Origin: Mesostigma viride
Lineage: Eukaryota > Streptophyta > Mesostigmatophyceae > Mesostigmatales > Mesostigmataceae
Reading direction: 5' to 3'
Assembly (NCBI GenBank): GCA_009746045.1
Contig: RPFO01000819.1
Span: forward strand, 310,001 to 374,000
Length of the DNA stretch: 64,000 nt
Of this stretch, positions 1 through 64,000 are shown piece after piece. Position numbers and translations under genes: made by a program. The notes beneath the pieces are model-generated. The model did no database searches. It was not told where the DNA came from and was given only the letters and a program-made list of their open reading frames with translations. Position 1 is the first letter of the stretch, and the number at the start of each line of letters is the position of its first letter.

Positions 1-639
1 AAATCGACAAGGACGCCTTTTACCTTTAATTCCGTGGACTTTCCGGTTTGGGTCTTCTTCGTCTTGTTTGTTTTCAGTTTCTCCAGCATATCGTAATGCC
101 TTGGACATCTCGGGTATCCTAAAAAATCCGCGGAAACGATTTATAAGAGGGAAGTATCTAACTTGGCGATGTGCCCTTCTTGTTGTTACTGTCTCTCCAT
201 TTCTATCTTCGTATTGTTCATATCTATTGTTTTTACATACTGGGCAGGTCTGGACTTCTTTTGTTTTGTATATATATTTTTCACAGGGGCACGCGTCATA
301 TACACGCATATCTAACCCTAAACCCTTCATGACTTTCTTGGCTTCTTTTACACTTTCTGGAAGAGAATTACCGGCTGGCAGAACTTTGCTGATGAAAGTG
401 AATACCTCATCCGCTAGGGCAGCCGATGCAGAATGCCTGCCGAGTATAGACAAGAGTTCCAACGCGCTAGCTATGGCAGTGTTACTGGATCCTGAATAAA
501 GTGGTGTGTCTGCTGATATTTTGCCTACTGTAGCTGCGAAGTTTCTGGCAAACGCTTTTGCATCCTCCTCCCCGGTACCAGGCAGATGATCGTCCCCCTC
601 CTGTAAAAAATCATCTATGCTACAGTTCAAATCCGCCAT
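1..639 (-). CDS. CACTA-type (Transposase_21/TNP2-like) transposase, N-terminal 213 codons, runs off the left edge
   Basis: An open minus-strand frame starts at the ATG at 639-637 (MADLNCSIDD) and stays open to base 1, giving 213 codons. Around residues 115-140 there is a cysteine cluster (DACPCEKYIY, then CPVCKNNRYEQY), followed by RYFPLINRFRGFFRIPEMSKALRY. A CPxC-xxRY zinc-knuckle-like region followed by a YFPLIxRxxxxF block is the usual N-terminal signature of the TNP2/Transposase_21 transposases of En/Spm (CACTA) elements, so the call is inferred from motif order. The DDE core would lie left of the window. The frame is undamaged, so the copy may be recent or active. It is divergent from the five-exon gene starting near 903, with about 260 bp between them. 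I did not find a CACTA terminal repeat. Confidence 0.7.
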   Translation of the reverse strand, partial: MADLNCSIDDFLQEGDDHLPGTGEEDAKAFARNFAATVGKISADTPLYSGSSNTAIASALELLSILGRHSASAALADEVFTFISKVLPAGNSLPESVKEAKKVMKGLGLDMRVYDACPCEKYIYKTKEVQTCPVCKNNRYEQYEDRNGETVTTRRAHRQVRYFPLINRFRGFFRIPEMSKALRYAGETENKQDEEDPNRKVHGIKGKRRPCRF

Positions 640-902
640 TGTTAGTATTCAGGAATAAATAAGACAGTAAATGTAAAGTCACGGAAGGCCCCGCGTCAGA
701 CTTGATGCGAAATCGTCGAAGCCACAGCAGACCTCAAAACGAACGCGTTGTTTAAGTTGCGCGGTGCTCCCTCTGTCGGTAGGTGCCGTTTGGTGCCGCC
801 GCGTGAATCGCGCGGACGCGTCAACACACTGCGGCTGACGTCGATGAGTGCCAACCGACGGCTTGGGTCACTTCTCTGGAGAACTTAAGGTAAGTTAAGT
901 TA
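640..902. promoter_or_regulatory. Divergent intergenic spacer
   Basis: This 263-bp gap separates the minus-strand transposase start from the plus-strand gene. It is GC-rich in its middle and has no open frame worth reporting. By position it should hold both promoters. I see no clear TATA box. Confidence 0.35.
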
Positions 903-3900
903 ATGCAGACCAGTGGTCGCACGCGTTGGGAACCGGCCAACGGCTCTCCTGCAAGACAAAAAAAAGCGGGATACTGCATGAGTCGTCGGATCGGTGCAGA
1001 TGGACGGTCAAGATTTCAAGATGATGTATGCGTTCAATTTGCCGCGTCCACTGAAAGGAGTCGTTGTTGCCATGGAGCCGCAAACACAGGCGGCCGACGC
1101 ATTGACCCAGGTTCCAACTTTTCTACCCAACCGCCGTTGGGTAGTTACATGGCAGCAGAGCAGGATGGGCCTTACATGGCCACAGAGGAAGAGTGGCGCT
1201 CATTCCGTGTTAACAAGATCAGCGAGGAAGTCCCTTTGCCATTTGTCGCCGAGAGTAACCGGCTGGCAGTCCTCCGCAGCCAGATAGCGGTGCTATCGCG
1301 GAGGTACCTTCACATTGGGGACCCAAAAGCTAAACAAGATGCTGCGTTAGTTGCCGCAGTTGTCGATAGACTGCTAAAAATATGCGATTTTGCGGGGGCA
1401 TTAGCAAACTCAGTTTTTGAGTCAGCAAAGCGGAGGTACGAGGAATTGCATAAAGTGGACCCCGCGAAGGCGGGCAAGGCTCCGGTATTCCAGCCGGCGC
1501 GGAAATTTGTAGCCGCCGAGCTGTCTCGATACTTGTCGAATTCGAAGTACAAGGCAAATAGCGGGAAGCGCGGCGTTCGCAACCCGGACGAGGGGGGTGC
1601 CTTGGCCAACCTAACCAACCTGGACACGCCAAAGGTATAGCTAAGCTCTACATTGGACTTATTCGAACTGAATGCTTTTCTTTTCCCGATGCAAAGGCAA
1701 CCGAACTTCATGCATGCAATATTTTCTGATCCGGCACCATTAGTATTGGAGTAAAATGTGTACTTGCCGCTAGCTTCGACGTCAAGTTCCTTCTTTTAAT
1801 TGATTTGCTTGTCTTTGTCCTCACAATCGTCGTATCACTCGCACGATCTTAGGTGAAGGTCGGGGTGCCAAAGCCCAAGATGGCGAATCCCAAGCAACAC
1901 AAGACTCACCTCGAGCCACAAGCCCCGGCCAAGGTAGGTTACGGCAAGAAAGCATTCTGGCTACTAGCTTACTGTATGTCGTCCGCAAAGATTGTTGCTT
2001 TCCACTCTCCATGCTCGTGACCATGTTCTTTTTAAACCGTGGGCATTCACGCGCCCTTATATAAATCTGGTTAAGAAATGCTACAGTGACTGACAAGCCT
2101 ATAAAAAAATTTTAATACATGTAATCCATGCCAGCACCCCACCCCATTTATTTTTGCATGCCAGCACCCCACCCCATTTATTTATGCATGCCAGCACCCC
2201 ACCCCATTTATTTATGCATGCCAGCACCCCACCCCATTTATTTATGCATGCCAGCACCCCACCAACCTGTTACGCCCGCCTTAAGGCGGCGGGCTCCGCT
2301 TTGCCTTTGCCATTTTCAAGCGCCCCCATGTCAGATGAGCAAATAGCTCAAGAAATCACGTCCTCTAACTATTGTACCTAGTTGGTTGTGTCCGTTTCCC
2401 CGAAATTGTGGCATGCGCAGGTCGAGAACACCCTGACGCCCCAGGAGCAGGAAATCGCGCTCCTCCGGGCCAGGCTCGCTGCACTTGAGCAATCTACAAA
2501 GCCGGCCTCAGCTTCAGAACAGTCGGTCGTCTATATCATGGCGCCGCCCCCTGTGCCACCAAGGAACCCTGTCCTTGCCGTGGCCGCTTCCCCATCGGCC
2601 ACGTCGGCTCCCCCCGCCGCAGAAACCGCGGCGCCGGCAGCCAAGGCCGCGGCGCCGGCAGCCAAGGCCGCGGCGCCGGCAGCCAAGGCCGCGGCGCCGG
2701 CAGCCAAGGCCGCGGCGCCGGCAGCCAAGGCCGCGGCGCCGGCAGCCAAGGCCGCGGCGCCGGCAGCCAAGGCCGCGGCGCCGGCAGCCAAGGCCGCGGC
2801 GCCGGCAGCCGAGGCCGCGGCGCCGGCAGCCGAGGCCGCGGCGCCGGCAGCCGAGGCCGCGGCGCCGTTCATTCCAAAGACGCAGAAAAACAAAGTAGAG
2901 AAGAAAGCTGATGTGCCGCCAAAGAAACTCAAGAAGGAACGGGAGCCCCAAATAAAAAAGGAACGCGGTACCCCCCTCGACCTGGGCCTTGGTCACTTTC
3001 TGCCGCAGCTCAGCCGCGTGGCCACCATCCGAAAGGATGCCCAGCCGAAAATCGGGATGTTCATCGCCGTGCGGTTTCTCCTAGAGGACCCTAAGAAGGA
3101 CCAGGATGAGTGGATCTGGGAGTTTGGTAAAGTCTGCTCCATCAACAAGAAAAGGAAGATCCCACACTCAATCCTGTTCGTCGAGCATGACGGCGCAAGC
3201 AAGACTTACGAGCTCGCCCTCAACGACCTCCCCCAAGACGAGAACAGCAAGGAAATATGTGCTTGGGTGGCTCTTGATGGAGTGTACCCCGAGGACATGA
3301 CGGCGTACCGAGTCCTCAAGCGGTCCCAAGCAGCCGTGAAGGCTGCTGCCTCTGTGGACCCCAACAACATGCAGGATCCGGTGAAAAAGAGACAGGTGGA
3401 GGAGTCCGCGCAGCAGGTGCCTGTGAAGCGTGCGAAGGGAGTTGTGGCTGGGGCTGCGGTGCAGGGCAGCGAGGCAAAGGCAGGGACAAAGGTGGTAGTC
3501 ACCACGCCTGCTGTGGAGAAAGCCAAGGCGGAGGTTGCCACGGCGGCGGCGGCGCAGGCCAAGGCGGAGGTCGCCACGCCGGCAGCGGCGCAGGCCAAGG
3601 CGGAGGTCGCCACGCCGGCAGCGGCGCAGGCCAAGGCGGAGGTCGCCACGCCGGCAGCGGCGCAGGCCAAGGCGGAGGTCGCCACGCCGGCAGCGGCGCA
3701 GGCCAAGGCGGAGGTCGCCACGCCGACGGTGCTGTCGGTTGCGCCTGCTAAACTGGAATTCAGCGACGTGGATATGGAGCTCGAGCCGGATTTGAAGGAG
3801 GCAGAGCGAGAACTGGCCAGGCTAGAAGCCCTCCTAGCAAAACAAAAGGCCCTTGTTCGCGCCCGGCAGCAGGGTACTGCGACTATGGACATCTCGACGG

Positions 3901-6500: not shown

Positions 6501-7616
6501 CCATCCATCCATCCATCCATCCATCCATCCATCCATCCATCCATCCATCCATCCATCCATCCATCCATCCATCCATCCATCCATCCATCCATCCATCCAT
6601 CCATCCATCCATCCATCCATCCATCCATCCATCCATCCATCCATCCATCCATCCATCCATCCATCCATCCATCCATCCATCCATCCATCCATCCATCCAT
6701 CCATCCATCCATCCATCCATCCATCCATCCATCCATCCATCCATCCATCCATCCATCCATCCATCCATCCATCCATCCATCCATCCATCCATCCATCCAT
6801 CCATCCATCCATCCATCCATCCATCCATCCATCCATCCATCCATCCATCCATCCATCCATCCATCCATCCATCCATCCATCCATCCATCCATCCATCCAT
6901 CCATCCATCCATCCATCCATCCATCCATCCATCCATCCATCCATCCATCCATCCATCCATCCATCCATCCATCCATCCATCCATCCATCCATCCATCCAT
7001 CCATCCATCCATCCATCCATCCATCCATCCATCCATCCATCCATCCATCCATCCATCCATCCATCCATCCATCCATCCATCCATCCATCCATCCATCCAT
7101 CCATCCATCCATCCATCCATCCATCCATCCATCCATCCATCCATCCATCCATCCATCCATCCATCCATCCATCCATCCATCCATCCATCCATCCCCATCC
7201 ATCCATCCATCCATCCATCCATCCATCCATCCATCCATCCATCCATCCATCCATCCATCCATCCATCCATCCATCCATCCATCCATCCATCCATCCATCC
7301 ATCCATCCATCCATCCATCCATCCATCCATCCATCCATCCATCCATCCATCCATCCATCCATCCATCCATCCATCCATCCATCCATCCATCCATCCATCC
7401 ATCCATCCATCCATCCATCCATCCATCCATCCATCCATCCATCCATCCATCCATCCATCCATCCATCCATCCATCCATCCATCCATCCATCCATCCATCC
7501 ATCCATCCATCCATCCATCCATCCATCCATCCATCCATCCATCCATCCATCCATCCATCCATCCATCCATCCATCCATCCATCCATCCATCCATCCATCC
7601 ATCCATCCATCCATCA
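6501..7616. repeat. 1.1-kb (CATC)n microsatellite at a LINE 3' tail
   Basis: About 278 nearly perfect CATC units with one interruption (CCATCCCCATCC near 7195). It starts immediately after the LINE A 3' terminus. Two other copies of this 3' end also carry CATC tails (14278-14303; reverse at 8130-8141 with 10005-10013). The array is therefore best read as an expanded retrotransposon tail. Open frames through it on both strands encode only four-residue repeats and are not genes. Confidence 0.95.
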
Positions 7617-17128: not shown

Positions 17129-19597
17129 CTAGTCCTCATCTGAGCTGTCACCCTCCCCACAGCAGTTGGGGCAAAACCACGGTTCCCGTTCCTGGGGCAG
17201 GGTCTTGAGGGTGAGACCAACGCACAGCATGTGAGCCCCATGCCCATCCACATCCGGGGTGTCGCACAGCAGGAAGGGGTTGGCGTCAGTGCTAGCCGCC
17301 CCCATGCATTTGATGCACAACACCCTGTCCACGCCATCATCAGAGCTGGTACTGCTGGCATCTCCCCCCTCGTCCTCCCCGCTGGCCACATCCTCATAGC
17401 CGCATCCATGCTCGTACTTGGCGGCTGCCTCCTTCTCCTTGGACCAGTTCAGCCCCTTTGCAATCCGCGACCGCTTCTGCTGCCGTCTCTTGAAGTTAGG
17501 GTCCCGCTTGGTTTCCTGCTTCAGGGTGCGCTCCTTCCGCAACGTCTCCAGCTGGTCCGTCACCGCCTCGGTCACCGCTATGCCCAGCTTGGCCGCCAGC
17601 ACTGACCACCAATCTTCTCCATCACGGGCCTTGAGCACGCCCATCATGCAGGCATACGGCCAACGCAAACCCGCAAAGCCCCCCTTGCCCCCTGGCACAA
17701 AGCCGATCTGCACGGAGTGGTGGAATTCATTCATGTTGGACGAGGCATCATGGTTGCAGCGGTCAAGCAGTGCAGGGTTCACATACTTCTCAACGGCGTT
17801 GTCCACCACACCACGCACGTCCACAATCACCCCCTTGCTGGTAGCCTCGGCAGGCGGCAGCCAGCGTCCTCCCTTCCAGCCCGGCCTGTTGCTGGTTCCC
17901 TTTGCCACGCCACACCAATCCTCCTTCGTCACCTCCTTAGTCTCCTTGTCCTTGTGGTGGTTGCAGTACGTCTCACACCCGTCGTGCTTGTTGAAACAGT
18001 GGTCTATCAGGTTGTGCATTGCCTGTGACAGCCACTCCCCCTTCATGTGCCCATTAATGCGAATGCACCACCTGAAACTGGTACATATGTGGGTGATGAC
18101 ATCATCTGTGAGAACCTTGGGCAGCTTGGACAAGTGCTCCTTCCTTGCTTTCAGAAGTGAACCATACAGGCAGTTGCCTAAATGGTTCAGATCTTCCTGC
18201 TTGGCTGGCACGTGCTCCGTGAGCTTCTCCTGCACCACAGCGTACCAGGATGTGTCACCATCGCTGACCACCTCTGCTGCGTACAGGCGCTGCTGCCTTG
18301 GCTTAGCACAATCCCCCCCTCCCCTCCCTCCCCTCTCTCCTTGCACACCATGCCAATGTTGAGGCCATCCTGCAGTGACATGAGGTCATTTAAGAGGGCT
18401 ACCGCCCCCCATGCCTCCATGCTCTTGCTGGACCCACCGTGATTCCGCCAGCACACGTGCTCAGCCCCTCATCATTGCTACCCCTTGGTTGCTCACACGT
18501 GGGGCACCACCTACCTGAGATGTGGATACCAACAACCTTCTTGCTGGGGCTATGGATCAAAAGCTGCTGCCCCCACAAACTCTTGAACCCCCTATTGGCC
18601 CAGCTCCCATCAAAGCTCACCCTGCAGCCCTGCCTACCCTTCCCATCCATCTTGAACCGCTTGCACTTCATCTCCATCTCTCGTACCGCCACTCTGTTCT
18701 CCTTGATCACCTCAATCAGATGCTCCATGACCACCTGCTCCACAGCACGCACATCCTTATCCCACGTGTCGTGCCCACGTGGGAACCTAATGCCAAGCAC
18801 GACGGAGAGACGCACAAGCTGTTGGCGGGACAAGCCAAAGAGCACACCTGCACACGCCAGCAGGCTGCTACAAGCATTGCGCCTCACACCCAGCCTCAAA
18901 TCTGAGTTGGGCTGAAGAAGGGGAAAAGGCTGCCACCACGGCTCATTCTCATCACCCGCACCCTTTCCCCTCCCATCCGGGGCCGTGCTCAGCCTCAGTG
19001 GGCTTGCAAAAGGGATTGGTGCACCACAGCACAACATCCGAGCAGCTGCCCGCTTCGCGCTTTGGCTTCTCCAGCATGCCCAGCTTGAGAGTGAACCCTA
19101 AACAGCATGGGCACGGGAGGGCGGCAGCCATGGCCTCCAGCCCACAAGAATCCACAATAAGCCGGGGCATATCAAAAGGCAAGCCCTTGTCCTCGACAAC
19201 GGGAGGCAGCACGACAGCATCTCTGACTTGTTTACCATGCGGCAGCACTTTCTCATCATCGGGGCGACGGCCGGTAGTGATGTGGAGGATTCCTCGCTCG
19301 CTCCGCATCGCGCAGCACTCCCTCGTCCTCGACAGATGGAGCACCACCCGAATCGCCACCAGCTGTCGCCGTCAGCCCTTCCACCCCCGCGCTAGCAACC
19401 CATTCTGCCCGAGTCTGCTCATCCGCGGACTTACGAGGCCGCCCACCACGACGTTTGGCCTCATTTGTAGTCCCCGGCGGCCTGCCTCGACCCCTGCGCT
19501 CCTCAACAGGCGCAGGCAGCTCCACCCCGGATTCGTGTGCTGCGCGTTCTTGCTCCCAACGCGCATATTGAGCTCGCGATTGCCGCGTTCTGCCCAT
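17129..19597 (-). CDS. DDE transposase, Mutator-like/Kolobok-like, with a C-terminal PHD-like finger (interrupted)
   Basis: Starts at ATG 19597 (MGRTRQSRAQYARWE). Order: AT-hook-like RGRGRPPG and GGRPRK; zinc cluster CPCC then LWCTNPFC; an N-terminal domain RLGVRRNACSSLLACAG; VSFDGSWANRGFKSLWG (first Asp) and GRWCPTC; GGSSKSMEAW; VVSDGDTSWYAVV (second Asp); DLNHLGNCLYG; then SFRWCIRINGHMKGE and ETYCNHH. Residues from CIKCMG to FCPNCC form a PHD-like finger, before an acidic end. Likely splicing includes a 56-nt intron at 18348-18293. Frame changes near 19300, 18930 and 18450 are either short introns or mutations; at about 18450 the shift from STCAGGI to HGGSSKSMEA looks like a true 1-nt frameshift. 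It would cut and rejoin the element at TTAA. Confidence 0.65.
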
Positions 19598-20264: not shown

Positions 20265-21582
20265 ATCGTTTTTCCCGTCTTTGTTCTTATTGTGTCGATT
20301 TCATCATGACGTGTATGATCGAGGGGTCGACCACTTCGGTGCGCACTCAACACGGCATTACCCCGCCCTGCCCACTGCAGACCGGCGTCTGGCAGGGTTG
20401 CGTCCTGTCGCCGTACCTGTTTATTATTGTAGTGGATTATGCTATGCGCCAGGCACGTGCTCGCTTTGCTAGCATTGCAGGCCGTGCCCCTGGCCTAGCG
20501 ATCACGAACGAGCTTGGGGAAGGGGGGCCGACTAACAAGCAGAATTTACTAGCTGACCTCATTTACGCCGACGACATCACGCTCATCGAGAAGCCGGAGT
20601 CTGCCCAACTTTGGCTGGACTGGGCCTGGCGCTCGAGGCTCGGGCGGTTGGTCTAGAAATCAGCCCCAAAACGGAGGCCCTGGCCCTCGCCATGGCAGGG
20701 CCCCCACCCACACTCCGCCTCTTAGACGATGCCGAGGTCAACTACCCTCCTTCAGGCCGCTTCAAGCTGGCAGCTCGGCAGTTGGCTTCCCGACTGCGAG
20801 GACGACATGACGACACGGATCGGCATGGCGTGGGCGCACCTCCATGACCACCGCCGCTGGTGGAGCAACCCCGCCCTACCCCGGATCGTCAAGCGTGACC
20901 TCTTCAAGGTCGTCATTCTGACGATCCTGACCTACGGCGCCGAGACGTGGACACTGATGGCAGCACTGAGGAGCTGGAGCAACGACTCGACGGCGCCGTC
21001 ACCAAGATGCTGCGCATTGAAGGCCCTTAACATCCCCTTTGGCTTGCACATTAGTAATGAGGATTTGTACGCTGATTTGCCCTATGTTTCCCACATTATT
21101 AGGCACAGGCGCCTGGGCCTAGCCGGGCACCTGGCCCGCACAGATCAGGTAGATACATCAGATAGACTAGCTGGCACCAAGCCCGCCCAGCCTGGGCGAT
21201 ATGTCCTCACCTGGCGTGCCCCCGGCCGCGCGCGGCAGGGCCGCCACCCGTGGACTTTTCGTGATAGACTCGGCATGGACATGTGCTACACTAGACGTGA
21301 CGGGCTCACCCCCGGGCAGCCTCCTGGTTTGTCTGTAATATGGAGGCAGATGGTGCGCAAGGATAGATGGCAAGTAGTGATGAAGGAGACCACCCCCAAG
21401 CCTGCGGGGGGCTCCGCGTGTGACCAAGTGTATGGCATTCATAGCGATTCGGGCCGCGGTGCCCACACCCCTGTAACTAGGACCTAGATAGCTTATACCA
21501 TCCATTCCATCCCATGTTCCGCTCCCACTGAGGACTTATGCTCACGTGACGCAGTCACGTGTCTATTAATTAATTAATTAAT
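20265..21582 (+). pseudogene. LINE D: RT 3' half, near-continuous, with hairpin and (TTAA)n tail
   Basis: 20265-20656 reads TGVWQGCVLSPYLFIIVVDY, LLADLIYADDITLIEKPE (YADD box) and LDWAWRSRLG. After one shift near 20650 it continues VGLEISPKTEALALAM, then (20729-21487) DLFKVVILTILTYGAETWTL, NEDLYADLPYVSHIIRHRR, AGHLARTDQVDTSDRLAG and PGLSVIWRQMVRKDRWQVVM before TAG. The 3' UTR is about 60 bp with a hairpin (CACGTGAC, loop GCA, GTCACGTG, 21543-21561) and a (TTAA)n tail. It is the best preserved RT copy here. RT activity would copy its own RNA at a nicked target. Confidence 0.85.
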
Positions 21583-32618: not shown

Positions 32619-45611
<12,993 letters not shown>

Positions 45612-47204: not shown

Positions 47205-48425
47205 AATTAATTAATTAATAGACACGTGACTGCGTCACGTGAGCATAAGTCCTCAGTGGGAGGGCAACATGGGATGGAATGGATTATGTAAGCTATCCAG
47301 GTTCTAGAACTATACAGGGTTGTGGGCACCACGGCCCGAATCGCTATGAATGCCATACTCGGTCACACGCGGAGCCCCCACAGACTTGGGCCGGGGTGGT
47401 CTCCTTCATCACTACTCGCCATCTATCCTTGCGTACCATCTGCCTCCATATTACATGCACACAAACCAGGAGGCTGCCCTGGTGTGAGCCCGTCACGTCT
47501 AGTGTAGCACATGTCCATGCCTAGTCTATCACGGAAAGTCCACGGGCCGGTGGCGGCCCTGCCGCGCGCCTGGGGCACGCCAGGTGAGGATGTAACGCCC
47601 TGGCTGGGCGGGCTTGGTGCCAGCTAGTCTAACTGATGTGTCTACCTGATCTGTGCGGGCCAGGTGCCCGGCTAGGCCCAGGCGCCTGTGCCTAAGAATG
47701 TGGGAAACATTAGGGCAAATCACTGTACAAATCCTCATTACGAATGTGCAAACCAAAGGGCCTTGCGCAGCATCTTGGTGACGTTGGGCCGTCGAGTCGT
47801 TGCTCCAGCTCCTGCGTCAGTGTCCAGGTCTCGGCGCCGTAGACGTCACGATCGTCAGAATGACGACCTTGAAGAGATCACGCTTGATGAGCCGGGGTAG
47901 GGCGGGGTTGCTCCACCAGCGGCGGTGGTCATGGAGTTGCGCCCACGCCATGCCTAGCCGTGTCGTCAGGTCGTCCTCGCACGTCGGGAAGCCAAGTCTG
48001 CCGAGCAGCTTGAAGCGGCCTGAAGTAGGGTAGTTGAGGCGACCTCGGTGTCGTCTAAGAGGCGGAGTGGGGGCGGGGCCGGCGGCCGGCCATGCCGAGA
48101 GCCAGGGCCTCCGTTTTGGGGCTGATTTCTAGACCAACAGCCCGAGCCTCGAGCGCCACTGAGGCAGTCCAGTCAAAGTTGGGCCGGCAGTCTGACTCCG
48201 ACTTCTCGATGAGCGTGATGTCGTCGGCATAAATGAGGTCAGCTAGTAAATTCTGATTTCTGCCTGTTGGTCGGCCCCCCTTCCCCAGGCTCGTTTGTGA
48301 TCACTAGGTCACGGCCAGCAATGCTATACTAAGCCGCAAAGCGGGCGCGTGCCTTGCTCATAACATAATCCACTACAATAATTAAACAGGTACGGCGACA
48401 GGACGCAACCCAGTGCCAGACGCCA
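47205..48425 (-). pseudogene. LINE E/F, 3' part (minus strand): RT C-terminal half with hairpin and tail
   Basis: The reverse complement matches LINE D: RT text around CVLSPYLF, YADD, KTEALAL, then HILRHRRLGLAGHLARTDQ and the hairpin CACGTGAC/GCA/GTCACGTG at 47223-47241 with a (TTAA)n tail at 47205-47220. Several frame breaks. It stops at 48425 inside the CVLSP-coding region, where the 8.37-kb element begins; the missing RT portion continues at 56797. Confidence 0.8.
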
Positions 48426-48529
48426 GCCCTACCAGCCATTAAGAATGTACTCCAGCACGCAAAATGTACTTCGTACCGAAGTTTGTCTTTTTATGCTGAA
48501 AATTGTCATGCATGATGTTTGCAACCAAA

Positions 48530-49262
48530 ATAGACCTCGTACAAAGTTTGGTATCGATCGGACGTCATCTTGGTGACATTTGCTAGCAATAAAGGTACAT
48601 TTTTGTCATTTTTTGTTAAATTAAATAGTAATAAATAGGAAACAGTACTAAATCACGTCAAACCATCATGGATATTTGCAAGCAACCTAATTACCACTAG
48701 AATAGACCATGCACAAAGTTTGGGGTCAATCTGAACTCAAAATAGTGACGTTTGCTAGCATAAATACTGCATTTTTTGCCATTTTCAAGCATTTTGCTCA
48801 GTGTAAGCTACTAAACAATATCAAACTACGTCATAAAGCTATGAAATATTGGAAGCAACCTAAACACCACTAGATTAGACCATGGGCCAAGTTTGGGCTC
48901 AGTCTGACGTCAAAATAGTGACGTTTGCTAGCATAAATGGTGCATTTTTTGCCATTTTCAAGCATTTTGCTCAGTGTAAGCTACTAAACAATATCAAACT
49001 ATGTCAGAAAGCTATGAAATGTTGGAAGCAACCTAACACCACTAGATTAGACCATGGGCCAAGTTTGGGCCCAGTTTGATCTCAAAATAGTGACGTTTGC
49101 TAGCATAAATGGTGCAATTTTTGCCTTTTTCAAGCATTTTGGTAAGTATAGTTGCCTCAAACTATGTCAGAAAACTGTGAATTGTTGTAAATAACCTGTT
49201 TGCCACTACATTAGACCATCCTCAACTTGTAAGGTCAGGCATAGGTAAAGGTAGTGACATTT
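48530..49262. repeat. Satellite-like tandem repeat, about 172-bp unit, 4-5 copies
   Basis: Markers TAGACC(A/T)...AAGTTTGG recur at 48532, 48702, 48879, 49051 and, degraded, 49215. Units share GTGACGTTTGCTAGCATAAA and GCCATTTTCAAGCATTTTG. Divergence rises toward both ends, typical of an old subterminal array. Confidence 0.85.
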
Positions 49263-49914
49263 GCTAGCACTATATACAAGCATATTATGCCTCTTTTCGC
49301 ATATACACATTAAAAATAACAAGACATCATCATATCATGGCCTTAATACAAGGTGTGCAAATGCAAATCACACCAGATCGGATGACCAATGATGGGTGGC
49401 TGCATGCCATCACATCTACCAGGCTGCAGGGTGAGAGGCCACATCGCTACAAGACAGGAATCCTCGCAATTGCACAACACCGCTAGTACACTGTGCACAT
49501 ACCCCAAGAGGATTTGGCTACAAGCCATAAAAGTTTGGCCATGCTAACACATTCTTCATCCAAGCAAAATGCAGCCTCTCCAAACTCAACTCATTGATTT
49601 AAATTCAGCTAGGCCAGGCGTGCATGCTCTACTTGCCGACAACCATGAGTAAACTTGTCTACCACTTCATTCCATGCGCCGGTAGATGGCACCGTCTCAT
49701 CTACCAGTCATCCCCGGCTCCCATTCCGCATCCTCCTCTCCCTCTCCCTCTCCCTCTTCCTCCTCCCCCTCCCCCTCCCATTCTCCCTCCCCCTCTCCCT
49801 CCTCCTCCCTCCTCCTCCCCCTCTTTCTCCCCCTCTTTCTCTCCCTCTTCCTCCTCCTCCCCGCCTTCACTGTCACTGTGCACAGCAGGGACGGCATCGT
49901 CTATGTGGGTGCCA

Positions 49915-51683
49915 TCACCTGCGTTCACGGTGCCAGCCTAGCTCCTGTGGAAAGAAGCGAGCGCGGCCAAATGCCTCGACTGGGTGTGGGCAGCCGCACA
50001 CGAACTGCGTCACCTCCGCCAGGGCATGATAGTCCTCATACTGCCCATCAGCCCACATCGCCTTGATGAGCAGGTGACCTCCCCTTTCCTGAACCTTAGT
50101 GACCCAGCCATGGAAGCGCTCCCTCTTCCTCGCTATCCCCGGAAACAGGGCACACAGGCGCATCCCGATAAGCGCACGTGCTCCATGCTCGGCAAAGTAG
50201 GCATTGCAGTCATCCTTTGCTGCTGCCCTGGCGGCGGTGGCAGTCTTGTAATGCTCAAAGTCAATCTGCGGGTGCTCTTTCAACGCCGCCACCGTGGCAG
50301 CTGACAGTTTGCCGGTACTGATCAGCTCAGGCTGGTGCACCTCTGCCGTACCGCCCACTGTCCAGTGCTGCAGGTGTACATCAGAAATGGGGACCGTCAT
50401 CCCTGCGCTGCCGCCACCTAATGTCACTCTAGAAAACTGGCCCGTCCACGACGGTGCGTAGTAAGGAGAGGCGACAATGCTGTCACGCTCCGTGCGATCG
50501 CCTTCCAGATCAAGGACCTTCACCAGCATGTGTGGTGCCCACGGCATTCCCTGCCCGCAGGTGACGGCTGGCCGCTTAACAACGAGTAGGTCGCTGCGTC
50601 GTATGAGGCTTCCATTCACCTTGAAGGTGTGCCTGCCGGAAATCAGTGTGCGCAAAGCGGGCGTTGCCGTTGATGTGCTCCCTCGCGCAGCGGGCGCACA
50701 TGCGCGGTTGATCTGCGCTTGAATCTCGCGGGCAGGGCAAGCGACGTGTGAGATTACTTGTTTTATGGGCAGCCTCAGTGCTCGTGTTGCCCGCGCAACC
50801 GACTGGTCGCCTGCAGATCGCAGCGGTAAGGGTACCGCCTTGTTCGCTTGCAGTTCACGCTTCTCTTTGAGCTTTTGCTCCATGATGTCGAACAGATTCT
50901 CGTTGTTGGCACGCACATCCTCCACGGACTTTGGCACCTGCTCAATCCATCCGTCCAGCAACTGCTGCTTCTCAGCGGCGACGATGTCAGGAAAAAGGCT
51001 GTGAAGGCTAGCGCAGGTACATCTCCTGGCACCGCCCTCGTCCCATTCAAAAAGCGGCACTAGACCAGGACTTCCTTTGGGGGCCTTGCCACGCTCTATG
51101 AGGAGGCACCCATAGACAGGATCTCCCTGCGGGGTGTACCCAATGGGCGTGACCCCGTCACAAGCCTCGCCATTAGGCCCTGTGGGCTGCCACTTGTTCA
51201 CCGGTGCATTTACCAACGTCTCCGATGCGGCTAGGCGCCAGCGGACATACACGGTCATATCCGGGCCCCAAAACACTTCGAGATCGAACACCTTCGAAGA
51301 GCGGTGCCTCTCCCTCTCGGCTTCGGTTGCTGGCTCATCATCCAAGTCGGCGGTGGCGCCCGCGCCCGCACCCGCGCCGGCGCCTGCGCCCCCACCCCGC
51401 CCGCGCCCGCGCGCGCGCCTTGGGTGGCGCCCGCGCCCGCACCCGCGCCGGCGCCTGCGCCCCCGCCCCCGCCCCCGCCGGGCCCGCGCCCGCGCCCGCG
51501 TCTTGGGTGGCGCCCGCGCCCGCACCCGCGCCTTCTCCCCCGCCCCCGCCCCCGCCCGCGCCCCCGCCCGCGCCATGGGTGTGGCCCGCGGCTGGCTTCT
51601 TCGGAAATGCGTCCATCGATTTCACCCACCGGCCGTCAGCGGTGGATGCACCCTTTCGGCCACGTTGTGACATCAAGCGCGGC
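49915..51683 (-). CDS. Transposon-borne gene: Gly/Ala/Arg-rich N-terminus and Tudor-like C-terminal segment
   Basis: The frame from about 51370 to 49915 is continuous. It reads ERERHRSSKVFDLEVFWGPD, YVRWRLAASETLV, CTCASLHSLFPDIV, QISHVACPAREIQ-like, SGRHTFKVNGSLIRR, then IGMRLCALFPGIARKRERFH and GWVTKVQERGGHLLIKAMWADGQ, which resembles a Tudor or PWWP barrel, ending HPVEAFGRARFFPQ. Upstream, a natural start (MSQRGRKGASTADGRWVK, ATG near 51671) is in another frame; the 51340-51580 GGCGCGGGC-rich tract between them must hold an indel, a short intron or an assembly slip. It shares the Tudor-like segment and low-complexity N-terminus with the gene at 903-4563. Function unknown; possibly a cargo or DNA-binding accessory of the 8.37-kb element. 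Confidence 0.5.
51340..51580. repeat. GGCGCGGGC-type GC-rich coding repeat
   Basis: Roughly 240 bp of hexamer-like (GCGGGC) units broken by APPK/R-coding spacers, repeated twice as an 80-90-bp block. It is a likely site of the frame break in the surrounding gene. Confidence 0.75.
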
Positions 51684-51956
51684 GTCCCCAATAGAACAGT
51701 CATGCAATATGAATAATCATTAGTATCAACGATGCGTTCATGCAGGCGTGAACTGTGAAATACAACAAGCATGCAACAACGACTCCAGCACACTTAGTAA
51801 ATACTGCTCATAATATCTGTGGCACATGCAACATGGTTAAAACACACATGGATGACCTGTATGGCTGCACATGAACTGTCCACCTAGAGAAGACTAGAAA
51901 TTCAGCATGATATCAAGAGCCATCCACACAAATATATGTCTTACCGCAGCTTAGGG

Positions 51957-52577
51957 CTTCTTCGGGTTGAGTTGGCGAATCGAGCTTGTTGAGCCCTGCT
52001 CGAAGTAATGCTCAAATGCGATGCCCAGGCCCGCCAGCACATCATCAAATGTGATTAGTTTCACAGGTGGTCCGAAGAGTTCCAAACGTGGTTGCTAATT
52101 TTCAGGCAGTGCCTGAAGGCCGCCTCGAAAGTGAAACGCGAAAGTGAAAAGGGGTCACAAACCCTATGTTCATATCCTTGACTCCCCCGTCGAGAACGAA
52201 CCGAAAACCAGCGCCATGAACGAACTTGTGACGAGTAGATGACGACATCGTGGTTATGGCGTCGTACCCCCCCTGGTGCAGCTGCTGCTTTATCGCCGCC
52301 TTCCTGTCCTCTTGCTTCCGCCCGGGCGAAAACCAGGCGCTTCGCAATGCCTGGAGATGTGATATTCTAATGGGCTTCATGCACTCGTGGCCGCACTTAC
52401 AGTCGAACGTCTCGTCGGTCACTAGGCTGCCGGCATGGGTGCTGCCGCTTAGCACTATGGCTGCGAACTTGCGCTTCCCATGGTGTCCCATCACCATGAT
52501 AGCGAAAGCCAGGAAGCAGATAGCCACGATTATGTCCCAGCAAAGCCATAGCACACCTTCCGTTTCGACCGCCATGT
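51957..52577 (-). CDS. Transposon-borne gene with a membrane segment and Cys cluster
   Basis: ATG near 52577 gives MAVETEGVLWLCWD, then a hydrophobic run IIVAICFLAFAIMVMGHH (probable membrane helix), FDCKCGHECMKPI (Cys cluster), HLQALRSAWFSPGRKQ and FVHGAGFRFVLDGG. The frame is open to about 52102. A second segment (52050-51957) ends GIAFEHYFEQGSTSSIRQLN then TAA, and is probably the last exon, but I could not fix the junction. The first 14 codons and the upstream region lie inside the left palindrome arm. Confidence 0.4.
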
Positions 52578-53149
52578 CGGCCACTAGTCCGGATAGCTCA
52601 ATGTGCACCTGACCTTGACACTAATCGCACAAACAGCCACAATTTTGCAAGCAAGAAGACATGGCTACCTCGGCATTTCATGAAATGTACTTCGTGAAAT
52701 GCATTTCGTGAAATGTACTAAGGAACGTGATTGGCCGGCGTTCGCTCGCCAAATCTCGCAAAATGTACTAAGGCACGTGATTGGTCCCGCAAAATGTACT
52801 AAGGAACGTGATTGGCCGGCGAAGATTCTGTAGGGAATTTTAATTGCAGCAAACAGAATCTTCGCCGGCCAATCACGTTCCTTAGTACATTTTGCGGGAC
52901 CAATCACGTGCCTTAGTACATTTTGCGAGATTTGGCGAGCGAACGCCGGCCAATCACGTTCCTTAGTACATTTCACGAAATGCATTTCACGAAGTACATT
53001 TCATGAAATGCCGAGGTAGCCATGTCTTCTTGCTTGCAAAATTGTGGCTGTTTGTGCGATTAGTGTCAAGGTCAGGTGCACATTGAGCTATCCGGACTAG
53101 TGGCCGACATGGCGGTCGAAACGGAAGGTGTGCTATGGCTTTGCTGGGA
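52535..53149. repeat. Long palindrome: 296-bp inverted arms, 23-bp spacer
   Basis: Arms 52535-52830 and 52854-53149 appear identical in every stretch I compared. Each arm contains direct repeats of AAATGTACTAAGGAACGTGA followed by TTGGCCGGCG, and the motif AATGTACTTCGT found at the element terminus. Spacer 52831-52853 is TAGGGAATTTTAATTGCAGC plus AAA. The start of the 51957-52577 gene is mirrored on the right (from 53109). Confidence 0.9.
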
Positions 53150-54330
53150 TGATTATCATCGTAGTACATCATATGTATTACAGTACATTTCACGAAGTAC
53201 ATTTCATGGAGGCAGAGGGAAAGTTCCTGTTCATGGTGAGTCGGGGTTAGCAATCACGGCAATGTCGATACATGTACTTGCAGTATATACAAATGCCATA
53301 ATGTCCTTAGATGCAGCATGAATGTCTATTGTTCGGATTTCTTTTATCACGATGCTTAGGATGCCTTCCGACAGAAATCTGCTGCGCTACAGGTCGGGAA
53401 TACCTGAACTTGATATGCGTGGCCAGTGGCCATGGCAGCCGGGGTCGGTAAGAATTAACTTCGATAGCCATGAATAATGCGGAAAGTGAACGTTGTCCAC
53501 CCGCTGCACAGGGAAAATGGCTGCACAGGAACGGCCTGACGTGATACTGTCGCAAAGCAGTTCTCATAAGCCGACAATTACACATTCGACTTATGATCGA
53601 TAATCGGCGCAGGCCTTCGACATTCAAGCGCGCATCGAAACGTCGTGAGGATTTCGGACATTTAGATGAAGTTGGATTGTTTTCGGCCCTCGTATTTGCC
53701 ATGATCTTGGCCATCCAATCTTTTTGCTTCGTGCACAGTTTGCGTTTGCAGTTAAGCGTAGGTACATGACAAGCTTGCGTTTGCGTTTGCGTTTGCGTTT
53801 GCCTTTGCCTTTGCCTTTGCGTATACATTTGCATGTGCGCTTGCGTTGCCGTTTGCTTATGCGTCCCAATGTATGTCTGGCTTTGGGCAATTCTATTTCC
53901 TTGTCGTTGGGATATGAGTGGGTGCTGGCGGTGGTGTTACTGTCGGCAGGTAGAGTGGCAGTGGCTTCAACTTCTGTTGCTTTTTCATTGCATTTGCATT
54001 TTCATTGGGTCTCTGTAGTTAACAACTGCTTTAAATATCTTTGTTAATAGCCGGCTTCAGCTGTAATTTCGATTGCATGTTGCTTTTGAATTGCATTCGC
54101 ACTGGGCACATGCAGTGGGCATTAGGCATTGGTAGTGCAATTACACATGCAGTCACACTTGCAATTGCAATGAAGTTGAAATTGAAGCTGCAGCTAAAAT
54201 TTGCTACGTGCCTACTGGTACAGTCGCATGTGCAGTCAACTTTGTGCTTGTTTATTATTATTATTTCTTCTTCTTATAATTTCTTCTTATTATTATTATA
54301 ATTTCTTCTTGCTTTTCGTAATGTGTGGTG
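53150..54330. other. Non-coding interior of the 8.37-kb element
   Basis: Contains (TTTGCG/TTTGCC)n at 53773-53860 and TTATTATTATT tracts at 54255-54300. No coding sequence recognised. Confidence 0.4.
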
Positions 54331-54342
54331 GTTAGAATGGTG

Positions 54343-54515
54343 ATGGCAGGGGCAGGAGCAGGGGCAGGGGCAGGGGCAGGGGCAGGGGCAGGGGCAGGGG
54401 CAGGGGCAGGGGCAGGGGCAGGGGCAGGGGCAGGGGCAGGGGCAGGGGCAGGGGCAGGGGCAGGGGCAGGGGCAGGGGCAGGGGCAGGGGTAGGGGCAGG
54501 GGCAGGGGCAGGGGC
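54343..54515. repeat. (GGGGCA)n hexanucleotide array, about 28 units
   Basis: Nearly perfect; one AGGGGCAGGAGCAG slip at the left and one GGGGTA variant at the right. Four-G runs every 6 bp make quadruplex formation likely on the plus strand. Confidence 0.96.
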
Positions 54516-54785
54516 AATCATGAGTTGCTTTCGGCCTGGCATGTGCACCAGAACTGGCATATGTGCTCGCAATGCAGCTTGCTACTCTTGTTCCTTTTGT
54601 TTGCCTTTTCTTTTGTTTGGGAACTGTTCGTGCAGGGGGGTGGGATGAGGCCGCGAGTCTCTGGGCAGGGGCATTGACGTGGGTAGGTGTGTGTCTGGGC
54701 TAAGTCTGCAATTGTCGCTGCTGTGCTGTACTTCTGGCTGTGGCTTACGGTGCATTTGTGGCTTGGAGTAGGGGTGAGGCTAGGG

Positions 54786-55580
54786 TGGGCGCAGGCGCGG
54801 GCGTGGGCGTGGGCGTGGGCGTGAGCGTGGGCATGGGCGCGGGCGTGGGCGTGGGCGTGGGCGTGGGCGTGGGCGTGGGTGTGGGCGTGGGCGTGGGCGT
54901 GGGCGTGGGCGTGGGCGTGGGCGTGGCATGGGCGTGGGCGTGGGCGTGGGCGTGGGCGTGGGCGTGGCGTGGGCGTGGGCGTGGGCGTGGGCGTGGGCGT
55001 GGGCGTGGGCGTGGGCGTGGGCGTGGGCGTGGGCGTGGGCGTGGGTGTGGGTGTGGGCGTGGGCGTGGGCGTGGGTGTGGGCGTGGGCGTGGGCGTGGGC
55101 GTGGGCGTGGGCGTGGGTGTGGGCGTGGGCGTGGGCGTGGGCGTGGGCGTGGGCGTGGGCGTGGGCGTGGGCGTGGGCGTGGGCGTGGGCGTGGGCGTGG
55201 GCGTGGGCGTGGGCGTGGGCGTGGGCGTGGGCGTGGGCGTGGGCGTGGGCGTGGGCGTGGGCGTGGGCGTGGGCGTGGGCGTGGGCGTGGGCGTGGGCGT
55301 GGGCGTGGGCGTGGGCGTGGGCGTGCGCGTGCGCGTGGGCGTGGGCGTGGGAGTGGGCGTTGGAGTGGGCGTGGGCGTGGGCGTGAGCGTGGGCGTGGGC
55401 GTGGGCGTGGGCGTGGGCGTGGGCGTGGGCGTGGGCGTGGGCGTGGGCGTGGGCGTGGGCGTGGGCGTGGGCGTGGGCGTGGGCGTGGGCGTGGGCGTGG
55501 GCGTGGGCGTGGGCGTGGGCGTGGGCGTGGGCGTGGGCGTGGGCGTGGGCGTGAGCGTGGGCGTGGGCGTTGGCGTGGGT
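54786..55580. repeat. (GGGCGT)n hexanucleotide array, about 130 units
   Basis: GTGGGC units with sparse variants (GGGTGT, GGCATG, GAGCGT). All long frames here are GV, GRGR or AWAW repeats and are not proteins. Confidence 0.96.
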
Positions 55581-55677
55581 AGGTGTGTGTCTCAGCTACG
55601 TCTGCTATTGTTGCAGCTGCGCTCTACTTCTGGCTGTGGCTTTGGGTATAATTGTGGCTTGGAGTAGGGGTGAGGCT

Positions 55678-56005
55678 AGGGTGGGCGTGGGCGTGGGCGT
55701 GGGCGTGGGCGTGGGCGTGGGCGTGGGCGTGGGCGTGGGCGTGGGCGTGGGCGTGGGCGTGGGCGTGGGCGTGGGCGTGGGCGTGGGCGTGGGCGTGGGC
55801 GTGGGCGTGGGCATGGGCGTGGGCGTGGGCGTGGGCGTGGGCGTGGGCGTGGGCGTGGGCGTGGGTGAGAATGGGCGGGTGCGGGGGCAGGGGCATGGGC
55901 ATGGGCGGGGGCGGGGGCGGGGCGGGGGCGGGGGCGGGGGCGGGGGCGGGGCGGGGGCGGGGGCGGGGGCGGGGGCGGGGGCGGGGCGGGGGCGGGGGCA
56001 TGGGC
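55678..56005. repeat. (GGGCGT)n then (GGGGCG)n arrays
   Basis: A second GGGCGT array (55678-55865) passes into GGGGCG units (55900-56000). Its left flank (AGGTGTGTGTCT through TGGCTTGGAGTAGGGGTGAG, 55581-55677) duplicates the left flank of the first array (54680-54785), so the block arose by a tandem duplication of about 0.9 kb. Confidence 0.93.
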
Positions 56006-56763
56006 GTGTGCATGGGCGTTGGGGGGTCAGGGGGGCTGGGGTTGGGTTTGGGTGGGTGGGTCATTGGTGCAATGTTTGGAGTTGGGGCTTGTGTGTGTGT
56101 GGGGGGGGGGGGCATGGGGATTGCCATGCGCGTGCACGTGGGCGTCCGCGTGATCCTCTGTTCGTGTACATGTTCATGCATGTGCCATGACGGCACAATG
56201 CATGTCAGATTCGTGACTTTATCGTGTGTTCCCTAGTTGCAAGTATTACTGCTAAAATTCATTGCAGCATTCCATTCCTTGCATAATGCTTGATTGCTTG
56301 CATCAGTTCATTCTATACTTCGATCATGACCTGAAGTGCTTAAGTATTACCAGACTCTCGCGCAGTGTCAGAATGTCCAATTTTTAGCACACATGCATGT
56401 TTGCACACCAAAGCCCTCATTCCCATGTTGATAAGGCTAAGTAAAACTTTTTTTTTTGTGCGGTGATCCACGAAATGCAGCTGTGAATGGCTCTAGGAGG
56501 TCACCAATGGTGGCCAGACCTGTTATTGAGCATTGGGAGACGTTACAGGGGCATCAATCACAGTTACATTTAGTTCATATGTAGTTCAATTTAGTACATT
56601 ATAGTATAAATGTAGTAGAAAATAGTACAACCTAGTATATTGTAGCATATACTAGTTCAACTACCTCCAGATGAGATCCAGGGGCTATGGGGACACTTTT
56701 TATGCAAAACTGAACTTGAAACAAGCAAAAAACAAGAAACTTGGAAAAACTCAAAATGTACTT
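56006..56763. other. Right interior of the 8.37-kb element
   Basis: G-rich decay of the hexamer array, then unique AT-richer sequence to the right terminus. No gene seen. Confidence 0.35.
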
Positions 56764-56796
56764 GTGCTGGAGTACATTCTTAACGGCTGGCAGGGC

Positions 56797-57490
56797 AGAC
56801 TGTCTGCAGTGGACATGGCGGGGTAAAGCCGTGTTGAGTGCGCACCGAAGCACTTGGTCGACCCCTCGTACAGCGTGCAGATGACGGTAATCAGGGGAGT
56901 GGGGGGCCGCGAGCGCGAGCAAGGACAGCCCATAGAGCGGCCCGGCAGAGGACAGCATCAAAAGCCTTGATGAAGTCGACGAAGATCAGGATGGCAGGAA
57001 ACTCACCAGGTTGCAGGAGAGAGCGGTTTCCTCGAAGAGGCCGGGCGCGCGACGAAGATGGCCATGACGGTGTTGCGCTTAGGACGAAAGCCTATGTTTC
57101 TGTGAGAGCAAAACGCAGCAGGCGGTTGAGGATCATGCGCATGAACAACTTCAATGCGCCGCTCTGGATGCAGATCGACTCGATCCGCGGTACTGAGTTA
57201 ATTGGCAGGGTCGTCAGGGGAACCGGCTTTGTTTTTGTACAGCATAGTAAACGGTAGTAGCTGTGCTGCCACTCAGGAATCGGCGGCGCTTCGGCAAGCA
57301 GGATCTGGTTGCAGTCGTCAAGCAGGAACCCCGTGAGCGCCGTCAGTTTAACTTGTCACGGGGGCGGGGAGCTGGTCAGGTCCAGGCGGCGGCGTAGAAG
57401 CGGAGTTGCTTGGCGGCTGTGCTCAGCTCGATCGCTCGGTGCAACGGCGGTAGCTCGTTGGCCGGGGTGGGCCAGGGGGTACACTGAATA
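56797..57490 (-). pseudogene. LINE E/F, 5' part (minus strand): RT N-terminal half
   Basis: Reverse translation gives LFMRMILNRLL, then ILIFVDFIKAFDAV (the RT block with the first catalytic Asp) and a segment matching the start of LINE D (GAGGGGTCGACC, CTTCGGTGCGCACTCAACACG, CACTGCAGAC). Frame breaks are present. It is the upstream continuation of the copy at 47205-48425. Confidence 0.75.
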
Positions 57491-61108: not shown

Positions 61109-64000
61109 TCACGATTTACACAGCGGGACAACCTCGCGCACGAACTCCGACGGCTGCCGCATCTGCACCAATATCTCCGCCAGCGCCTTCCCGGCCGGCT
61201 CGTCCTCCAGATCGCAGCTGTCCAGGATCTTGATAAATGTGCCCTCAAAGTCCTCCAACACGGCCAGCGCGTGCCGTTCCTCGATCACGAGCTTCTTCTC
61301 CTCGTTGAACCGCAGCATGCCGTGCTTGTGGTACGTGTTGTGCGCGTGGATCGCAAAAGCGATGTACGGCTGCATCGGCTGCGAGTCCCACTTGCTGAAA
61401 TACCGCAGCCCGTCAAGCAGCATGTGGATCAGGTACTTTGTGACGTCCTCCAGCGACAGGGTGCCCTTGCGGTACAGCAGCAGCATCGCGTACGTGGCCG
61501 TCAGCTCCGCGCGAGGCTCCTCCAGCAGCATCTTCGATGCGTCCGAGAAGTGCGGGCCGCGGCTGCGGAGGTGGTAGATCGCGTGGCCAACCTCGTGAGC
61601 GGCCACGTGCCAGACCAGGTGGTCGATCGCATCAGGCTGGTAGCGGTCCAGCACCGAGGTCTCCCCGTCGGCAAACAGCTGCCGCACCTTGTTCTTGATC
61701 TGCGTTCCAGTGGGAGCATCCATGAGCGCATACATGAGCACGTGGGTTGCGTGATGGCTCGCACACAAGCCCATACAGGGGGGTCGCAACGATAGTCTAT
61801 GTAAGACTATATAGATGGTCTAGATAAGACTATATAGATAGACTATATAAGATATGTGCAATTTGATGATGGCACAGGCGCAAGACTATGGGGTGGTAAG
61901 CGATACCACTTACCAAGCCTGTGCAGAGGATGGCAGCTCATAGAAGGTGGTAGCCCGCCGTGGCGCTGTACGCATTTATTTCGTCCTTTATCTAGTTCCT
62001 TATCCATAAGCAAGCGTTGGTTATAATATCGTCCTTTATCTAGTTCCTTATCCATAAGCAAGCGTTGGTTATGATCTCGTCCTTTATGTAGTTCCTTATC
62101 CATAAGCAAGCGTTGGTTATTATTTCGTCCTTTATCTAGTTCCTTATCCATAAGCAAGCGTTGGTTATGCCAGCCCGTGCAACGGCCAGGTGCCAAGCTC
62201 TTTCACTCGTGTTCTCTCTACGACAGGGCTTGGCATCTGCATCATTGTAGGATGTGAGCTGGCAGCATGCACCTTTCCTGGGGGGGAAACCACAAAGTGC
62301 GACAAACTTCAGAGCGCGCTCACAGAAACGCAGTATTTACTAATTGTAGAGGGTGCTCACATGGGCCGGTTGGTTGAATGAAACACGGTCCGGGGCACAT
62401 GGCAGCCGCAGTTGCCTAGAAACAGTCACATCAGATCAAGTAATTTTGTTCGGATTATATTCCTCGCATTACCAGGTTTGCAATGCATGTATCACAAACC
62501 ACAGCTTGGTACTTCACTAATTTATTTGTCACACATAGGTCTCCTACAGGAAGTGCACGTACCAGCTATGCCACTTGGCAGTGTGCGAGAAATCGACAAG
62601 CTCACATTTTTAATGTGGTGCTTGTACAATTGCAAAGCTCACGAATCACCAATGTACTTGTACGTGACAAAGCTCGCTGGTAGAAAGCACGGTCCACCCA
62701 ACGTCCCCTGCTTGATTTAACATTGCAACTGCGCTGCTTGTCTCGTTGATACCACTTGTAATCCCTCCCACCCACCCACCCACCCACCCACCCACCCACC
62801 CACCCACCCACCCACCCACCCACCCACCCACCCACCCACCCACCCACCCACCCACCCACCCACCCACCCACCCACCCACCCACCCACCCACCCACCCACC
62901 CACCCACCCACCCACCCACCCACCCACCCACCCACCCACCCACCCTGCTTACAATCTCGATGCTCTCATATCATACATATCATATCACATATCATGTATC
63001 ACATCGTGTTGATGCCACATTACTCCCCACCAACACACCACCCTTCTCCCCCCCCCCCCCCCCCCCCCCTGCTTACAATCTCAATGCATGCTGTGACCAC
63101 ACCCACCCCTGCCCACCACCACCACACACACACAGCCACCCTACACTCACAATCTCGATGCGTGCCCTCGTCTCATCCACGTTGAAGTAGATCTTGACGC
63201 CCTTGTCCTCCTTGACCGCCTGCCGGTTGGGGACCGACTGCCCCGAGAACGTGAACACGAGCGAGCAGCCCGCGTGGTACGGTGAGTAGTAAATGCCAGC
63301 CATCGTGTGGGACAGCGCCCGCAGGCCCGCGCGGGAGAGTGGGGTTGGGCGGCCTCGGAAAAACTCCTCCAAAAGCCCCTGGATGGAGGCGATGGTCGTG
63401 TTGGCGGCCGCATACTGCTCGTCGAGGAATCGGACCGAGAAGTCCGGGCCTTGCTTCACGCGCAGGGGGTCACTGTAGCCAGTCTCGATGTCTGTTGTTG
63501 TTGGAGGGGGGGGGACGGAATGGTTGGGCGGGGGGGGGACGGAATGGTTGGGCGGGGGGGGGGGAGGTTGTATTGTCGACCGGGGGGGATTGTTGGGGTG
63601 GGTGGGTGGGTCAAATTGTTGGGGCGGGGGGTGAATTGTGTGTGTGGGGGGGTGAGTTGTTGTGTTGCCCTCCCTGCCAACCCCCCAATAACCTTCCCTG
63701 CCACTCCCCCGTTGGCCCTCCCCGCCACCCCCAGCCACCCACGGGACCGCTTACACACTCTCCTTTACCCACAAGAGTCACGCAGAAAACACAACACAAC
63801 GACTGTGGGGGGAGCTCGCCATGCCTTGCTGGGCGTCAACCCTGCTGCATCACGTCACATGCACGATGTGGATGTAGGGCCCTCACCGTGCACAATCTGG
63901 ATCGGCCCCCGGCAGTCCATCCACTTGCGGTCCGTCGCCTCCCACTGCGCCTCCAATTTTTCCACGTCACGCTCCGCCATTGCGTTACGATACTCCTTCA
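61109..64000 (-). CDS. HEXXH zinc-metallopeptidase-like protein, C-terminal three exons, continues past the right edge
   Basis: Minus-strand exons: 64000-63887 (partial), 63491-63151, 61699-61109 (TGA). Junctions are GT-AG with agreeing phases (1, then 0). Exon a ends DCRGPIQIVH; exon b starts DIETGYSDPLRVKQGPDFSV, with FLDEQYAAANTTIASIQGLL and KGVKIYFNVDETRARIEI. Exon c reads IKNKVRQLFADGETSVLD and HVAAHEVGHAIYH, giving the HEXXH zinc motif; LLEEPRAELTATYAM about 20 residues later can supply the third ligand (Glu). HEXXH with a later E-x-x-x-AE pattern resembles gluzincins, with some likeness to the M49 dipeptidyl-peptidase III type. It would hydrolyse peptides; substrate unknown. The start lies right of the window. 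Confidence 0.65.
61975..62170. repeat. 46- to 62-bp minisatellite, about 4 copies
   Basis: Units TTTCGTCCTTTATCTAGTTC then CTTATCCATAAGCAAGCGTT and GGTTAT, nearly identical. Confidence 0.9.
62766..62944. repeat. (CCCA)n microsatellite, about 44 units
   Basis: Perfect CCCA repeat; same motif as the kinesin intron 2 array. Confidence 0.96.

Follow-up and report, generated by a model that had tools for sequence, protein, structure and literature searches.

The question raised by this locus is which kind of transposon occupies it and how that transposon moves. The locus lies in a 64,000-bp stretch of Mesostigma viride (assembly GCA_009746045.1, contig RPFO01000819.1, positions 310,001–374,000), which is called the window here. 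An initial annotation, made from the letters alone, had placed in it an 8.37-kb element that carries two genes and interrupts a long interspersed nuclear element (LINE), and had proposed either a new superfamily or a non-autonomous element with cargo. The element is real and very young, with approximately 240 near-identical copies. The product of its larger open reading frame (ORF), ORF1, resembles the C-terminal halves of proteins that contain the DUF7869 domain (PF25273) and are encoded in the same genome. The element is probably a derivative of a DUF7869-type transposon that lacks the catalytic core, depends on mobilization in trans, and keeps the C-terminal half as ORF1 along with a subterminal satellite.

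Termini, copy number and age

The transposon corresponds to positions 48427–56795 (8369 bp). Its terminal inverted repeats (TIRs) are 32 bp long and identical at 30 of the 32 positions: CCCTACCAGCCATTAAGAATGTACTCCAGCAC on the left and, inverted, CCCTGCCAGCCGTTAAGAATGTACTCCAGCAC on the right. Both termini begin with CCCT, and the terminal consensus is CCCTRCCAGCC. Inverted termini had been recognized at first sight, as 33 bp with 31 identical. The 33rd pair belongs to the target sequence and arises because the G that closes the left CAG happens to pair with the C that opens the right one. TTAA sits inside the TIR, and the duplication at the ends is 3 bp, not the TTAA duplication of piggyBac-like elements.

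Target duplications were defined from the copies themselves. Twenty sequences were fetched from 40 listed (the best 40 of 275 candidates) and analyzed with the window copy, 21 in all. A 3-bp direct repeat is seen in 13 of the 14 sequences with both ends recognized: CTG, TTG, TTG, TCG, CAG, GCG, AAG, GTG, TTG, CTG, ACG, GAG, and CAG. The exception is L017, flanked by ATG and GGG. The shared final G reflects how the copies were chosen, since the listed copies all match through base 48426. L013 has two right ends, of which the outer one was taken, and L015 is outside the 14 scored sequences. When the element and one CAG are removed, the LINE flanks align across the join with a LINE copy located elsewhere in the window (20320–21579), with 86% identity over 1331 columns and small gaps around the site. 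Both LINE halves therefore belong to one insertion, which the element interrupts cleanly, as initially described.

The genome (440 Mb) holds 235 + 244 = 479 termini with up to 3 mismatches, versus 0 + 0 for the reversed pattern used as a control. The search for the termini elsewhere in the assembly, proposed in the initial annotation, thus reveals a multi-copy family. Halving 479 gives the figure of about 240 copies, some of which are cut by contig ends or gaps. Among 100 termini listed (all exact), 80 make 40 inward-facing pairs on the same contig. The spacing is 7.6–8.9 kb in 36 of these 40 pairs, and the median is 8423 bp. Dispersed, shared inverted termini and a duplication of fixed length are what characterizes a cut-and-paste transposon with TIRs, and both are found here.

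The duplication of a genomic segment, or an artifact of assembly, could also multiply a sequence without transposition. In its favor, the left flank is common to two copies on contig C1579 (L014 and L015), and there are copies that adjoin gaps or sit in short contigs. The exact ends, the otherwise differing flanks of the copies read, the 3-bp duplications, and the clean LINE site already refute this explanation, and its probability is negligible. The two copies on G000:C1579 are adjacent, 8938 bp apart, and look as if one copy had been duplicated in tandem along with its flank.

Between 51580 and 53770, each of the other 20 copies shows 0–4 mismatches to the window copy, or 33 in 43,460 aligned bases altogether. 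With so few mismatches in about 43 kb, the burst must be very recent. The divergence is uneven along the element: 16–17 per kb in two bins of the satellite, 0.25–1.5 in the bins of 50000–51399, 2–3 in 53000–53399, and 3.6–7 in three bins near the right end (56000–56599). The segment 52000–52999, which was picked after the fact, is nearly invariant, with 1 mismatch in 20,000 aligned bases of 20 copies, and its neighbors are several-fold more variable. It contains ORF2 and much of a palindrome.

Some individual termini deserve mention. At G000:C778:149399-149432, at G000:C1679:1249309-1249341, and at the right end of L019, the terminus breaks off or is doubled exactly at the TTAA within the TIR, as if TTAA-specific elements had been inserted there. 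L033 (G000:C91:436722-446721) has at 201–767 a right end with a hybrid terminus, 91% identical to the family over 567 columns and followed by a run of N. It is the sole such place among the best 40 of 252 candidates, and is possibly an older or master copy.

Kinship of ORF1 with DUF7869 proteins

A Pfam search with the proteins of the window element revealed no family near the cut-off and no transposase domain, and a sequence search of PDB with them gave nothing useful. The absence of a recognizable DDE transposase, pointed out at the start, therefore holds at the level of domain recognition. DUF7869 was chosen for a genome search from a pattern in which a cysteine motif is followed by conserved aspartates and HTHxDxD. 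The domain is encoded at 150 or more places in the genome (the best 150 of 275 candidates), all above the cut-off and with sub-groups of equal scores. The profile has no match in 14 control genomes, and neither ORF1 nor the DUF7869 alignment has relatives in the viral contigs.

One member was read for each of three families: a (L037), c (L038), and d (L039). In family c, a single open frame encodes an N-terminal cysteine region, the DUF7869 domain, and a long C-terminal half. The C-terminal half of family a is in a different frame, behind a GC-rich repeat run, and the parts of the family d protein are in separate exons or frames. The motifs DKxD, DGGSENRN, and GHTHxDxDQKFG are invariant across the three families.

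ORF1 aligns along most of its length with the C-terminal halves of these proteins, at 21–25% identity. Against a profile of the three C-terminal halves it scores 32.8 bits, against no more than 8.9 bits for any of 4000 shuffled sequences (2000 from ORF1 and 2000 from ORF2). The hhalign comparison gives an E-value of 2e-9 over residues 256–451. Judged from these comparisons, ORF1 is a homologue of the C-terminal half of DUF7869 proteins. The matching region lies outside the DUF7869 domain proper.

The initial description of ORF1 as Tudor-like finds modest support in a relative: in family d, the exon corresponding to the end of ORF1 matches PTM_DIR17_Tudor with an E-value of 5e-4, below Pfam's cut-off. 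ORF1 itself has no match to PTM_DIR17_Tudor. The AlphaFold model of ORF1 is too poor to use (mean predicted local distance difference test score, pLDDT, of 43.7 with 4 sequences). Foldseek with this poor model found nothing at E-values up to 0.001; its top matches, weak ones at E-values of 0.03 or more, are mostly Tudor, BAH, and chromo-like.

The likely start of ORF1 is MSQRGRKG near 51670, which is in frame in only some copies. Counted from it, 2 of the 20 sequences with both anchor strings (out of 21 examined) have a full ORF1, of 586 and 588 aa. In the remaining copies, the frame is shifted by indels, mostly within the GC run, where assembly errors are possible. Measured between stop codons, the ORF1 frame stays open over 550 aa or more in 12 of 21 sequences; 19 of the 21 have an identical ORF2. 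Along with the youth of the family, the mostly full length of its copies, and the failure to find a partner with the same ends, this openness is what could be expected of an autonomous element with a superfamily of its own, in which ORF1 alone, with ORF2, or with spliced exons would be the transposase. ORF1, however, matches a part of DUF7869 proteins other than the DUF7869 domain, and the proteins of the window element contain no Pfam transposase domain. The distinct variants in ORF1 (49915–51330) comprise 12 nonsynonymous and 3 synonymous changes, while 2.77:1 is expected without selection; purifying selection is thus not visible among the copies, which is weak evidence in so young a burst. 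Autonomy is considered unlikely.

Shared satellite and the search for a partner

The relationship is clearest in family d. The left satellite of the window element has a counterpart there, an array of equal period (blastn E-value of 5e-20). The best local match scores 88.7 bits, compared with at most 29.2 bits in 500 dinucleotide shuffles. Among the DUF7869 families, only family d was seen to have such a satellite, of about 173 bp, next to the end of the gene. In the listed family d copies, the satellite units come after the gene and are oriented relative to it as they are in the window; the array in the L039/L040 copy is mostly inverted. The order of gene end, satellite, and terminus is common to the window element and typical family d copies. 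Family d also has apparent inverted ends of 32 bp, GGGGATTCATARGTGTTTGCTCAATTTCA, with 30 of 32 positions identical between L041 and the end in L039, and a further copy likewise has the 3' end in place. A different, highly repeated element occupies L041:1-3095 and stops at 3095, just outside the 5' end of family d. Thirty-eight other places match 1–3095, 1–3083, or similar stretches of it with 99–100% identity (among the best 40 of 929 candidates).

The satellite and the gene fragment could instead have been captured by a non-autonomous member of a known superfamily with 3-bp duplications. Such duplications are given for EnSpm, with CAC..GTG termini, and for Harbinger in the relevant passages of PMC12730594, and for Zator in those of PMC10045372. 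The window element has the 3-bp duplication in common with all three, and differs in its CCCT termini from the CAC of EnSpm as given in PMC12730594. No CACTA/EnSpm, Harbinger, or Zator transposase domain is present in the proteins of the window element; the genome was not searched for these transposases. Since gene end, satellite, and terminus are ordered as in family d, inheritance is simpler than capture, and capture is rated as improbable. Likewise, "cargo" is probably the wrong word for the larger protein, since ORF1 is related to a transposon-borne type, and the satellite is shared too.

A core-less derivative would be moved by a catalytic protein encoded elsewhere, and a partner was looked for. 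Neither the window element nor the surroundings of its copies, among the places listed, contain a DUF7869 domain. Hence, the element can be at most a core-less derivative of the DUF7869 group. The nearest pair of ORF2 and DUF7869 is 14.8 kb apart, between the best 150 of 686 ORF2 places and the best 150 of 275 DUF7869 places. Two widely spaced terminus pairs (15.6 and 16.0 kb) were rejected as full-length partners, since ORF1 comes directly after ORF2 in the stretches read (3.5 kb at C113 and 3.0 kb at C373). The pair at C335 belongs to an ordinary copy whose right part is longer by about 1.7 kb. A 12-mer resembling the right terminus inside the coding repeats of L038 was taken as chance.

The exact TIR followed by a pyrimidine has no match in the genome. 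The 14-base core with an inner base unseen in standard copies has 6 matches (2 for the reversed control), and a second pattern has 1 (control 0). By sequence or position, these off-pattern ends look mostly like altered or interrupted ends of the same family, and no clear second family is apparent. The patterns cover about three quarters of the possible contexts and need the 14-base core; they would not detect a partner whose ends are looser.

Several results weigh against the derivation from a DUF7869-type transposon. The ends of family d, GGGGATTCATARGTG, differ from the CCCTRCCAGCC of the window element. An element with both the termini of the window element and a DUF7869 domain was not found in the partial pattern tests and the places listed. 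A nuclease activity of DUF7869 is suggested by the acidic motifs and the multi-copy elements, and the fold model is unusable: the AlphaFold prediction of the family c DUF7869 region has a mean pLDDT of 41.9 (3 sequences). Finally, ORF2 could not be linked to the missing N-terminal part. By eye, ORF2 looks collinear with the N-terminal cysteine region of DUF7869 proteins, a resemblance carried on in other frames by AAFRHCLKISNHVWNS beside AIRKMAGVTRATWNN. Against this region, hhalign gives ORF2 an E-value of 0.31, and the pieces that follow it 0.17 and 0.24. In hmmsearch with the N-terminal profile, ORF2 is not among the top shuffles. Of 1500 other pieces of window DNA, 378 attain the frame-tolerant score of 24.3, as do 354 of 1500 shuffles. 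Tested in these three ways, the resemblance is not significant, and ORF2 is not claimed as a transposase remnant.

With these points taken into account, a core-less DUF7869 derivative is still regarded as the likely nature of the element. Of the two initial proposals, the non-autonomous one is favored, and the evidence decides neither for nor against a new superfamily. Under this reading, another locus of the genome would supply a DUF7869 transposase that recognizes the termini, and probably also the satellite, excises the element, and inserts it elsewhere with a staggered cut of 3 bp. The ORF1 protein, Tudor-like at its end, may continue to be produced and act in an accessory or targeting role. 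ORF2 may be what is left of the N-terminal part in broken form, an origin that the tests above do not support. CACTA/EnSpm elements have subterminal repeats, and their deletion derivatives depend on a partner, which makes them a comparison for mobilization in trans.

It can be speculated further, at somewhat less than even confidence, that DUF7869 proteins are the transposases of a superfamily of DNA transposons not yet named or characterized. Its hallmarks would be TIRs of 32 bp, duplications of 3 bp, subterminal satellites of 173 bp, and a chromatin-reader-like tail. The window family would be its highly amplified core-less derivative, and the satellite and the palindrome with 297-bp arms may be sites of transposase binding or processing. 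DUF7869, a domain of unknown function in Pfam, is not mentioned in the literature searched, which does not extend to Repbase and other journals; nor was a description of such elements found within this scope.

Other features and implications

The coordinates are collected in Table 1. Both genes of the initial annotation were read in the element. The left satellite is present with a period of 173 bp, where 172 bp had been given, and so are the palindrome, the GC hexamers on the right, and the CT-rich and GC-rich tracts. What was called a membrane-segment protein is ORF2, of which the hydrophobic start stands. In a genome search with the ORF2 protein, the best 150 of 686 candidate places are all identical; these copies filled the matches listed, and divergent relatives are thus not among them.

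Table 1. Features of the element and its target site (positions in the window).
Feature	Position	Strand	Basis
Left target duplication copy, CAG	48424..48426		aligned ends, LINE junction
Left 32-bp TIR	48427..48458	+	genome terminus search, copy ends
Subterminal satellite, period ~172–173 bp, homologous to the satellite of DUF7869 family d (L039, L040)	48529..49270		
CT-rich tract	49735..49861		repeat analysis
ORF1, 553 aa as listed; relative of the C-terminal half of DUF7869 proteins, Tudor-like end	49915..51576	-	
GC-rich hexamer run inside the start of ORF1	51356..51574	-	
ORF2, 157 aa, hydrophobic start, cysteine motif	52102..52575	-	
Palindrome of two identical 297-bp arms with a 21-bp centre; left arm contains the ORF2 start	52535..53149		
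GGCAGG hexamer array	54345..54516		
GTGGGC hexamer array, contributing length variation among copies	54785..56019		
Right 32-bp TIR	56764..56795	-	genome terminus search, copy ends
Right target duplication copy, CAG	56796..56798		aligned ends, LINE junction

Outside the element, the window contains another transposon-like gene on the minus strand (17129–19037). Its part at 18399–19037 matches the Mutator-like transposase PF20700 with an E-value of 1.4e-10, and beside it an ORF at 17129–18046 has a weak PHD-finger match (E-value 6.8e-5), just below the cut-off. Long tetranucleotide arrays are located at 6501–7615 (CCAT, 279 units), 33629–34522 (ACCC, 225 units), and 62763–62945 (CCCA, 46 units).

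Through the kinship between ORF1 and the DUF7869 proteins, a previously unplaced element becomes part of a two-component system that can be tested: a core-less element on one side and, within the same genome, candidate transposases on the other. A role is also suggested for a Pfam domain whose function is unknown, namely that of transposase for multi-copy elements with TIRs. The burst is so recent that both components may still be active in Mesostigma viride.

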